Shown here piece by piece: positions 28,349 to 62,968 of a DNA stretch of 64,000 bases. A model generated the notes under the pieces. It made no database searches, was not told the origin of the DNA, and worked only from the letters and a program-made list of their open reading frames with translations. The number at the start of each line of letters is the position of its first letter. The first letter of the stretch is position 1. This DNA comes from Halosimplex rubrum (lineage in GTDB: Archaea; Halobacteriota; Halobacteria; Halobacteriales; Haloarculaceae): contig NZ_CP058910.1 of the NCBI RefSeq assembly GCF_013415885.1, positions 1-64,000 on the forward strand. The letters run 5' to 3'. The translations under genes were made by a program, and so were the position numbers.

Positions 28349-28843
28349 ATGGACGTGAAGTCGCGCCACCACCTCCGCGCGGACGCGATCGCCGACATCG
28401 AGGACGCCGTCGCGGCCACCCTCGGCGTCGAGATCGACGCCGACAGCTACGAGAAAGTCGAGTTCGAGGACAGCGACTGGAACGTCGTCCTCGTCGACGG
28501 CGACCCGCTCGTCCTCTACGTCCAGGACGCGGACGGCGAGGACGAACCGTTCCTCACCGTGCAGGGAGCCAACGCCTTCCCGCCCCAGCGCAACGTCGTC
28601 ACCGTCGACGCCGGCGCCGTCTCGTTCGTCTCCGACGGCGCCGACGTGATGCGCCCCGGCATCGTCGAGGCCGACGACTCCATCGAGAGCGGCGATCTCG
28701 TCGCCATCGCCGAGGAGAGCCACGGCAAGTTCCTCGCCGTCGGTCGCGCGAAGACCAGCGGCGACGACATGGTCGGCGACTCCGGCAAGGTCGTCGAGTC
28801 GATCCACCACGTGGGCGACGACCTGTTCGAGTTCACCGTCTGA
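28349..28843 (+). CDS. PUA-domain RNA-binding protein
   Basis: A 164-residue protein: an N-terminal alpha/beta pre-PUA domain (about 1-75) and a C-terminal PUA domain (about 80-160). The PUA part is recognisable in RNVVTVDAGAVSFVSDGADV followed by MRPGIVEADDSIESGDLVAI and KFLAVGRA. It resembles archaeal MCT-1/Tma20-type proteins, whose eukaryotic relatives act in translation reinitiation and ribosome recycling. The last residues DDLFEFTV lie inside a tandem duplication that extends downstream. Confidence 0.82.
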   Translation: MDVKSRHHLRADAIADIEDAVAATLGVEIDADSYEKVEFEDSDWNVVLVDGDPLVLYVQDADGEDEPFLTVQGANAFPPQRNVVTVDAGAVSFVSDGADVMRPGIVEADDSIESGDLVAIAEESHGKFLAVGRAKTSGDDMVGDSGKVVESIHHVGDDLFEFTV

Positions 28844-29069
28844 GTGCGCGAGCGGAGCGAGCGCTTTTGGCCCAGGTTTTGCGCCCGGGGTGTGCGGTTT
28901 CCACCCCGGGCGCAAAAAGTGGTCGCGCGACGACCTGTTCGAGTTCACCGTCTGAGTGCGCGAGCGGAGCGAGCGCTTTTGGTCCAGGTTTTGCGCCCGG
29001 GGTGTGCGGTTTCCACCCCGGGCGCAAAAAGTGGTCGCGCGACGACCTGTTCGAGTTCACCGTCTGAGT
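28815..29069 (+). repeat. 112-bp tandem repeat spanning the 3' end of the PUA gene
   Basis: Copies at 28815-28926 and 28927-29038 (one mismatch), then a 31-base partial copy at 29039-29069. Each full unit holds the last codons and stop of the PUA gene, a small hairpin with loop GAGCGGAGCGA (28846-28864) and a 16-base perfect stem (28877-28892 with 28902-28917). Extra copies of the gene end encode nothing new. Confidence 0.9.
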
Positions 29070-29106
29070 ACGCGGGCAGTCGTCGTCTGTTGTCGCGGTC
29101 CGCGGT

Positions 29107-56511: not shown

Positions 56512-57294
56512 ATGGACGAGCCGGTCTTACTCACAGGTGCAGGGGGCCGCGTCGGGCAGGCCGTGCTGGAGGGGCTCGCCGACGAGTACGAGTGGCAGCT
56601 ACTCCTCCACAGTCCGCCGGACGACGAGCCGGACCACGAGTACCTCGTCGGCGACGTGACCGACGAGGAGACGGTCGCCGACGCGATGGACGGCGTGGGA
56701 GCCGTCATCCACCTCGCGGGGGACCCGCGACCGAGCGCGCCGTGGCCCTCCGTGCTGTCGAACAACATCGACGGCACCGAGAAGATGTACGAGGCCGCCG
56801 TCGAAGCCGGCGTCGAGAAGTTCGTCTTCGCCTCCTCGAACCACGCCGTCGGCGCCTACGAGACCGACGAGCGCACCCCCGAGATGTACCGCGAAGGCGA
56901 CGACTACCGCCTCGACGGCACCGAGTTCCCCCGCCCCGGCAACCACTACGGCGTCTCCAAGGCCGCCGGCGAAGTGCTGGGTCGGTACTACCACGACGAA
57001 CACGGCATCTCCGTCTGCAACGTCCGCATCGGCAACCTCACGCGGGGCCACCCGCCGATCGACTACGAGCGCGGCCAGGCCATGTGGCTGTCCTACCCCG
57101 ACTGCGCCCGTATCCACCGCTGCACGCTGGAAGCCGACTACGACTTCGAGATCGTCTACGGCATCTCCGACAACGACCGGAAGTACTACTCGCTGGAGCG
57201 GGCGAGAGAGGCGCTGGGCTACGACCCCCAGGACAACTCAGCCGAGTGGAACGCCGACGAGCACGTCGCCGACTACGAACGAGAGAGCGTTTGA
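56512..57294 (+). CDS. azf: NAD-dependent glucose-6-phosphate dehydrogenase (Azf-like SDR)
   Basis: A 260-residue extended short-chain dehydrogenase. It begins VLLTGAGGRVGQAVLEGLAD (G-x2-G-x2-G), has the conserved VIHLAGDPRPSAPWPSVLSN, the ASSNHAVGAYE segment, the YGVSK catalytic pair and the NVRIGNLT motif. Its sequence closely matches what I recall of Haloferax Azf, an archaeal glucose-6-phosphate dehydrogenase of the oxidative pentose phosphate route. Its last residues (NADEHVADYERESV) differ from a second partial copy of the 3' end at 57393-57598. Confidence 0.85.
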   Translation: MDEPVLLTGAGGRVGQAVLEGLADEYEWQLLLHSPPDDEPDHEYLVGDVTDEETVADAMDGVGAVIHLAGDPRPSAPWPSVLSNNIDGTEKMYEAAVEAGVEKFVFASSNHAVGAYETDERTPEMYREGDDYRLDGTEFPRPGNHYGVSKAAGEVLGRYYHDEHGISVCNVRIGNLTRGHPPIDYERGQAMWLSYPDCARIHRCTLEADYDFEIVYGISDNDRKYYSLERAREALGYDPQDNSAEWNADEHVADYERESV

Positions 57295-57392: not shown

Positions 57393-57598
57393 ACTTCGAG
57401 ATCGTCTACGGCATCCTCGCGAGCGAAGCGAGTGAGGGCTCGACAGACGAGCGGAGCGAGTCTGTCGGTGTCTCCGACAACGACCGGAAGTACTACTCGC
57501 TGGAGCGGGCGAGAGAGGCGCTGGGCTACGACCCCCAGGACAACTCAGCCGAGTGGGACGCCGACGAGCACGTCGCCGACTACGAACGAGAGGCGTAG
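57393..57598 (+). pseudogene. Partial duplicate of the azf 3' end, containing a 57-bp insert
   Basis: The segment matches 57143-57290 of azf at an offset of 250 bases, with one substitution (GAC for AAC) plus a 57-base insertion at 57415-57471. Reading continues in frame through the insert to YERE and then A before a TAG stop. It lacks the Rossmann half of azf. It may preserve the original C-terminus, with the intact azf having acquired the altered ERESV end. Confidence 0.8.
57415..57471 (+). repeat. 57-bp double-hairpin insert in the azf duplicate
   Basis: Absent from azf itself, so its limits are exact within a base or two. It holds two hairpins: CCTCGC-GAGCGAAGCGA-GTGAGG (57415-57437) and CGACAGAC-GAGCGGAGCGA-GTCTGTCG (57441-57467). 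Both loops are 11 bases long and almost the same. The length is a multiple of three and has no stop codon in the azf frame. Confidence 0.88.
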
Positions 57599-62613: not shown

Positions 62614-62702
62614 AGACGTCCGAGCGGAGTCCAGCGCGAGCGGAGCGGGCGCTGGGCTCGTCGGTCGTGAACGAAGTGAACGTCCGAGCGGAGATTCGAA
62701 CT
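62614..62702 (-). repeat. 89-bp direct repeat, distal copy, beside tRNA-Arg
   Basis: Eighty-nine bases that match 62829-62917 with two mismatches, at an offset of 215 bases. The unit is made of 13 bases of the tRNA-Arg end, a hairpin CCAGCGC-(11 bases)-GCGCTGG, a hairpin CGT-GAACGAAGTGA-ACG and then 22 bases of the tRNA-Arg end (62681-62702). Confidence 0.9.
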
Positions 62703-62783
62703 GCCGATAGACGGTCGCTCCCGCCGGTCGCGCTGCGTCTATCGTGCTCGAATCTCCGCGGGACGGTCGCATTCCTCAGCGAT

Positions 62784-62811
62784 GACGAGCACACGCTACG
62801 CGGTGCTCGCC
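62784..62811 (-). other. Hairpin H1 beside tRNA-Arg
   Basis: Stem GACGAGCAC/GTGCTCGCC with a ten-base loop, in the same orientation as the hairpin beside tRNA-Asp at 25793-25820. With the following GAGTTG the shared segment is 34 bases with two mismatches. Confidence 0.75.
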
Positions 62812-62828
62812 GAGTTGCTTCGGAGAGA

Positions 62829-62917
62829 AGACGTCCGAGCGGAGTCCAGCGCGAGCGGAGCGAGCGCTGGGCTCGTCGGCCGTGAACGAAGTGAACGTCC
62901 GAGCGGAGATTCGAACT
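62829..62917 (-). repeat. 89-bp direct repeat, proximal copy, ending inside tRNA-Arg
   Basis: This copy runs from outside the tRNA into its last 22 bases. It has the same structure as the copy at 62614-62702; only two bases differ. Confidence 0.9.
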
Positions 62918-62968
62918 CCGGTCCCTGGCTCCGCAAGCCAAGAGGATAGTCCACTACCCTACCCGGAC
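62896..62968 (-). tRNA. tRNA-Arg (anticodon GCG)
   Basis: A 73-base cloverleaf: acceptor arms GTCCGGG and CTCGGAC with discriminator G; anticodon stem TTGGC/GCCAG around loop TTGCGGA (anticodon GCG, reading CGC and CGU); T-arm CGGAG-TTCGAAT-CTCCG. No encoded CCA and no intron. Its 3' end is repeated, whole or in part, three more times within about 300 bases downstream. Confidence 0.95.

Follow-up and report, generated by a model that had tools for sequence, protein, structure and literature searches.

Palindromic insertions that keep the reading frame of the genes they enter were described in Rickettsia. Other short hairpin repeats are known: CGTC-tagged REPs have an unpaired CGTC tag, an 8–9-bp stem, and a 4–5-nt loop and occur mostly as inverted dimers (PMC3733652), and in the PATEs of Haloquadratum the palindromes lie near the ends, inverted repeats and target duplication are lacking, and the target is 4–5 nt long, with HqIRS46 of Haloquadratum walsbyi being a terminal-only form of 52 bp (PMC3119063). 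Here we compare these systems with a two-hairpin insertion in the haloarchaeon Halosimplex rubrum, found in a stretch of 64,000 nt (the window; NZ_CP058910.1, positions 1–64,000). We found no description of this two-hairpin family in the open-access literature.

Results

An azf-type gene segment carries a 57-nt insertion beside its empty site

The window contains an intact azf-type gene followed by a second azf 3′ end that carries the insertion (Table 1). An earlier note, made from the DNA letters alone, had described a clean 57-base insertion and one substitution between the two copies, with the insert keeping the frame over 19 codons without a stop. The alignment of 57143–57290 with the sequence from 57393 onward confirmed this description: a 23-base prefix is identical, there is one 57-base insertion with an open frame of 19 codons, the only coding substitution is 57251 A/57558 G, and divergence starts at the stop codon. 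The register is ambiguous by 2 nt (57414–57470, 57415–57471, or 57416–57472), and we shifted the insertion to 57414–57470 because this is the only register common to azf and to a tRNA-Leu site, itself ambiguous over 5 nt. The empty site then reads CGGCA/TCTCC and the filled site CGGCA/57 nt/TCTCC. The stem of hairpin 1 starts on the last base of the target pentamer (57413; G in most copies), and the first three bases of the right-end CGGTG pair in the foot of hairpin 2.

The element contains the 11-mers GAGCGAAGCGA (57421–57431) and GAGCGGAGCGA (57449–57459); 11-mers of this type occur five times in the window versus 0.78 expected. Elsewhere in the window (28817–29070), a gene 3′ end (GACGACCTGTTCGAGTTCACCGTCTGA) is present three times at a spacing of 112 bp, and the stretches separating these copies contain a hairpin resembling a terminator as well as GAGCGGAGCGA hairpins.

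Table 1. Coordinates of the azf-locus features and of two divergent family members in the window (R1, covariance model of the family)
Feature	Position	Strand	Basis
azf-type gene, intact, element-free	56512–57294	+	ORF; orthologous regions in G002–G007; name azf putative, from first reading
Second azf 3′ end with element, joined to ancestral downstream flank	57393–57598	+	Alignment with azf; congener comparison
Target pentamer just 5′ of insertion: CGGCA (consensus YGGYR)	57409–57413	+	Present in empty azf site and congeners; pentamer counts over copies
Inserted element, 57 nt (model columns 6–62)	57414–57470	+	Empty azf site; same junction in tRNA-Leu empty/filled pair; R1 85.5 bits, E 1.2e-14
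Hairpin 1: 8-bp stem (second pair a conserved U·G) topped by tandem GA mismatches, a 2-bp helix, and a GNA loop	57413–57439	+	Covariation
Hairpin 2, abutting hairpin 1: 9-bp stem starting with conserved U·G pair, same cap	57440–57468	+	Covariation
Right end CGGTG (consensus CGGYG), target-pentamer-like	57466–57470	+	3′ pentamer counts
Second copy of divergent member, 215 bp upstream, with tRNA-3′-end fragment	62625–62693	+	R1 32.8 bits, E 1.6e-4
Divergent family member, 64-nt insert, pentamer CGGAG at both ends	62840–62908	+	R1 38.9 bits, E 1e-5

The insertion belongs to a haloarchaeal family

When the azf copy was used as a BLAST query, the chromosome proved to contain three full relatives, and the covariance model R1 was built from these plus two shorter ones. 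The earlier note had proposed a genome-wide covariance search for the hairpin pair as its check, and this search succeeded: R1 gave 51 matches at E ≤ 1 and 39 at E < 0.03 in this 4.48-Mb genome, and matches in 35/40 relatives at E ≤ 1e-4, with up to 59 per genome. The condition under which the note would have been refuted, the lack of another genomic instance with two tandem hairpins, was therefore not fulfilled. In a phylum-wide sample of 197 searched at E ≤ 1e-6, matches fell in 23 of 33 genomes listed for the same order and in none of the rest. In 84,980 genomes, a scan with an exact 57-nt pattern, in which about 24 bases are fixed, returned 63 stretches, all but one from Halobacteria (Halosimplex, Haloarcula, Halorientalis, Salinarchaeum, Natronomonas, Halobacterium, and other genera); the sole exception, a MAG contig labelled Salinivenus with haloarchaeal-looking genes, is by inference mis-binned. 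These genome statistics rest on searches and retrieved stretches, not on whole-genome computation.

The two hairpins occur as a unit. The pattern of hairpin 1 (hp1) gave at least 70 matches among those listed, in 8 Halosimplex genomes, compared with 0 for the reversed-pattern control, and hp1 was followed by hairpin 2 (hp2) in 110/110 distinct instances collected, so that no autonomous partner with an hp1 end but without hp2 was found among them. The bare 12-mer of the cap is only weakly enriched (76 versus 51 for the reversed control), and thus it is the two-hairpin unit, not the cap, that marks the family. Rfam held no match to the element, and the full element was absent from 2.9 million viral contigs, in which hp1 alone had 68 scattered matches that we took for background.

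The divergent member at 62840–62908 touches the 3′ end of a tRNA-Arg gene (62896–62968, minus strand). As a separate observation, the region 62618–62918, with two direct copies of this member and of the tRNA-Arg 3′ end, resembles att-site repeats. Palindromes also lie just downstream of tRNA genes at L039, L042, L051, L055, L064, L072, and L074; the arms of these tRNA-downstream palindromes contain a T-arm-like sequence and its inverse, and their cap is GAGCGRAGCGA.

Covariation proves the two-hairpin structure

The structure is proven by covariation, not by the single-sequence fold, which for the azf insert stands out only a little (z −2.1 as RNA and −0.8 as DNA). In the own-genome alignment (A3), double changes occur in 20/25 pairs (0/500 shuffles), with 122 double-change cells compared with 28 in shuffles and at most 19 in slid controls; in the alignment of relatives (A4), they occur in 19/25 pairs, with 317 double-change cells compared with 78 in shuffles. 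Because R1 was built on its given structure, A3 and A4 lean toward that structure. A six-sequence MAFFT alignment made before any model gave 15 double-change cells versus 4.7, and in riboflavin synthase orthologues the stems of the element covary in situ.

The two tandem hairpins of the earlier note were thereby upheld, but its 11-base loops turned out to be structured. Each has a 2-bp helix (GC or, through compensation, AC/GT) set between the tandem mismatches GA..GA and closed by a 3-base loop, mostly GNA. The U·G pair near the foot of each hairpin is near-invariant (78/81), as are the tandem GA mismatches under the cap, and the inner pair of the cap helix changes from GC to AU with no mispaired exception. 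Most copies of the element are 51 or 57 nt long. The DNA mini-hairpin d(GCGNAGC) is unusually stable, and tandem GA mismatches are stable in both DNA and RNA; therefore, good folding of the unit is expected in single-stranded DNA.

Empty and filled sites define junction and target

Three independent empty/filled pairs (azf, tRNA-Leu, and an intergenic repeat) agree on the junction, with entry directly after a YGGYR-like pentamer: CGGCA in azf, CGGCG in tRNA-Leu, and TGGYG in the intergenic repeat. The latter reads TCCTGGYG/GACTGAAAGG in 19 empty copies, whereas about 26 filled copies have TGGYG and GACTG separated by the element. The element begins with TC and ends with CGGYG, has no terminal inverted repeats, and takes one orientation relative to the target pentamer, which is often CGGCG. 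The target is not duplicated (at azf, CGGCA on the left and CGGTG on the right). Nested or tandem entry was seen where another element or a repeat ends in CGGTG (L109 and L363).

Many intergenic copies sit within larger repeats and may have spread with those. One such repeat, genus-wide and about 300–500 bp long, has the form CGGYTGGGGAGG...TGGYG-GACTGAAAGGGCGAGG...CACTATCC-hairpin-GGATAT...CGAGGGCTTTCA, and its many copies (L138–L144, L157–L176, and others) occur with and without the two-hairpin element. A search of six loci against Rfam, including one locus of the intergenic repeat (L052), gave no relevant match.

The element occupies conserved genes in frame

By Pfam/NCBIfam assignment, the element lies in sense orientation and in frame in genes for HMG-CoA reductase, leucyl-tRNA synthetase (LeuRS), riboflavin synthase, a TrpG/PabA-type amidotransferase, biotin ligase, a Tsr3-type protein, and an XPB-type helicase; further in-frame hosts are a COX1/COX3 protein, a metallophosphoesterase, and unnamed ORFs. 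At least 12 genes of this genome are occupied in frame, sharing the frame C/GGC/G, and the element adds a loop of 16–19 residues, including in essential enzymes. The earlier note had suggested looking for in-frame gaps of 54–60 bases in orthologous genes; in-frame insertions of 48–57 nt were indeed found in other genes, and the inserts appear as gaps in alignments with solved homologues.

Presence and absence at an identical site was compared among congeners for two genes. HMG-CoA reductase is filled only in the present genome (G000) and in G001 of 23, being 51 nt longer than in the 21 others, and its insert would encode the predicted peptide SASEASGGSGERSSAG. Riboflavin synthase (ribE) is filled in G000 and G002 and empty in 6 congeners; in other genera, the same site is filled by different hairpin sequences with compensatory changes.

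The insert length is a multiple of 3 in 20/20 coding copies versus 66/104 others, a comparison biased in its own favor because the coding/non-coding split picked uninterrupted frames. None of the coding copies breaks the reading frame, and 19/20 are stop-free. One copy (L095) terminates its gene by a stop close to the C terminus. Even among the 104 non-coding copies, the element is stop-free in the coding frame in 93, compared with 67 and 35 in the other two frames.

One copy (L099; own genome 112522–112574) lies antisense in the N-box of a histidine kinase, giving NAVEHGSTSPRSQTPEDAVEHG. In this copy, the second AVEHG comes from the hairpin-2 sequence itself; there may be similar repeats in haloarchaeal kinases. 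At another locus (L005 2148–3017, minus strand), a neighboring pabB-like gene has at a loop a Ser/Glu-rich stretch, VERSEASDGTSD, possibly a decayed element.

The filled azf and tRNA-Leu copies probably stand at ancestral loci

The earlier note had assumed that the element entered after the duplication or was lost from azf. This is not the most probable history: the filled azf 3′ end retains the ancestral downstream flank, which is also the flank behind azf in congeners (also in G007; compare G003/G004). Because it is joined to that flank, we take the filled end as ancestral, and on these comparisons the 3′ end without the element, which now completes azf, is probably a later incomer together with about 100 bp behind it. 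The azf region of G007 (L108) is arranged in the same way, but the intruder is larger (a 281-aa ORF) and there are more azf 3′-end fragments, and G005 also retains a decayed filled azf copy. In L108, the ORF is flanked by successive azf 3′-end fragments, the azf 3′ end being a repeated entry site.

At the tRNA-Leu(UAA) site, for which G002, G003, and G007 were taken into the comparison, congeners read AAAGGCGGCGGGCTTAAG and share their 5′ flank with the filled copy, and 57 nt are inserted there in this genome. The filled copy is a 3′-truncated pseudogene whose host sequence of 77 nt differs by 1 base from the intact tRNA-Leu, located about 350 bp downstream. As at azf, the filled copy probably occupies the ancestral locus and part of the intact gene appears to be the newcomer. 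Such replacement of gene parts may reflect entry of the element into an already redundant copy or, alternatively, local rearrangement provoked by the hairpins. No genomic copy closer than 49/57 was found as donor for this very recent insertion, suggesting that it came from other strains or that hairpins turn over fast.

Discussion

We think it likely that the two-hairpin elements are very short non-autonomous haloarchaeal mobile elements, similar to PATEs and REPs, whose surviving intragenic copies are tolerated surface turns. What we observe is a family with a defined structure and junction, lineage-specific presence and absence, and in-frame occupancy of conserved enzymes; from this, we infer movement as folded single-stranded DNA, as for PATEs, REPs, and IS200/IS605 ends, by an enzyme not yet identified. 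This enzyme would handle the folded strand, which would be inserted directly 3′ of a YGGYR-like pentamer, in one orientation and without target duplication, and since the element ends in CGGYG, the right end of each inserted copy could itself serve as a target. Because many genes have the usual target in the frame C/GGC/G (Asp-Gly turns), in which most copies of the element lack stops, intragenic survivors would be in-frame extensions of surface turns, rich in Ser/Glu/Gly/Arg and tolerated by the host. No excision or movement was observed in the sequences compared. A bolder version, which we entertain only tentatively and would not bet on, is that the element is transposase-free or uses an unknown enzyme, its folded two-hairpin strand being joined after YGGYR by a conserved haloarchaeal host enzyme that has repeatedly given essential archaeal enzymes surface loops.

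The element could instead be a PATE in the strict sense, i.e. a terminal-only relic of an IS200/IS605-family transposon mobilized in trans by a TnpA of that family. The similar anatomy of the Haloquadratum PATEs speaks for such an origin, but the resident IS605 has different ends and a different target, guide sequences would have no room between the target and hairpin 1, and no Y1 gene was found in G006, G009, G027, G030, and G039, which have 16–59 element copies each (G030 is only 81% complete); we consider it unlikely, if still worth keeping in mind. The present genome does have a Y1 transposase: its two Y1 genes represent one IS605, with TTAC/TCAA-type ends and unrelated CTCGCGCTTCAGCGCGGG hairpins, and R1 found nothing significant at these loci or at the IS605 ends. 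A resident Y1/IS605 as mobilizer was not supported in this genome or in 20 others. We also rejected a GTAG REP with its RAYT (no R1 match at own Y1 loci and five high-copy genomes without Y1) and a MITE (neither terminal inverted repeats nor target-site duplication).

Compensatory changes, conserved U·G pairs, and GA/GNA caps speak for a structured RNA, a cis-regulatory or processing signal selected for its RNA structure and not mobile, and the in situ covariation in ribE and the many copies in intergenic structured repeats fit that reading as well. It is nonetheless improbable given that the element lies in unrelated conserved coding regions and a tRNA pseudogene, is absent from those sites in congeners, lacks an Rfam match, and forms structures that drown in flanking folds (z about 0). 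That one copy lies in a tRNA gene recalls archaeal tRNA introns, known at non-canonical sites, and hence removal by the splicing endonuclease; with no bulge-helix-bulge at the junctions (minimum-energy folds only), all coding copies in frame and nearly all stop-free, and the tRNA copy a truncated pseudogene beside an intact gene, an intron is very hard to sustain. The weak single-sequence fold, the GC-rich genome, and the modest 12-mer enrichment would by themselves allow the azf finding to be a chance hairpin-bearing indel, a view refuted by the covariance-model and pattern matches, the controls, and the empty sites and to which we give practically no credence.

Read as a mobile family, filled and empty orthologues in sister species permit direct tests of how short mobile DNA creates protein loops and of what a loop costs. 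The same system bears on which enzyme moves transposase-less hairpin elements, a question common to CGTC-REPs and to the PATEs and SMRs of Haloquadratum.

Among known systems, SMR-A of Haloquadratum likewise lacks target duplication, inserts into other repeats, and has an unknown mobilizer, but it is about 110 bp long with terminal inverted repeats (PMC3119063). REPs and REPINs share short hairpins, compensatory stem changes, and some intragenic copies, and the CGTC class also lacks a dedicated transposase (PMC3733652, PMC3116915); however, these repeats were described in bacteria and REPINs are inverted pairs of one palindrome, whereas here two different hairpins stand in tandem, with a 3-nt loop plus GA mismatches and a CGTC that spans target and element and is paired. 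The PATEs, including HqIRS46, come closer, the element meeting their haloarchaeal host, near-terminal palindromes, lack of inverted repeats and of target duplication, and short 5′ target (PMC3119063), but no related IS605 ends were found here, hairpin 1 starts at the junction, the element lies in frame in coding genes, and several high-copy genomes have no Y1. The resemblance to the idea of Rickettsia palindromic elements (RPEs) raised by the earlier note is supported: both are short palindromic repeats inserted in frame in many unrelated genes, translation being an RPE feature. RPEs are about 100–150 nt long versus 48–57 nt here and presumably differ in sequence, the exact 57-nt pattern being confined to Halobacteria apart from the one contig that looks mis-binned. 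The present element has an archaeal host and two abutting hairpins with GA/GNA caps, its junction and target are known from empty sites, and no RPE or REP family in PMC3733652 has a similar structure. Overall, the two-hairpin family is a structurally different archaeal counterpart of RPEs, an independent in-frame family that spans an archaeal class and has as hosts LeuRS, HMG-CoA reductase, riboflavin synthase, and further conserved enzymes.
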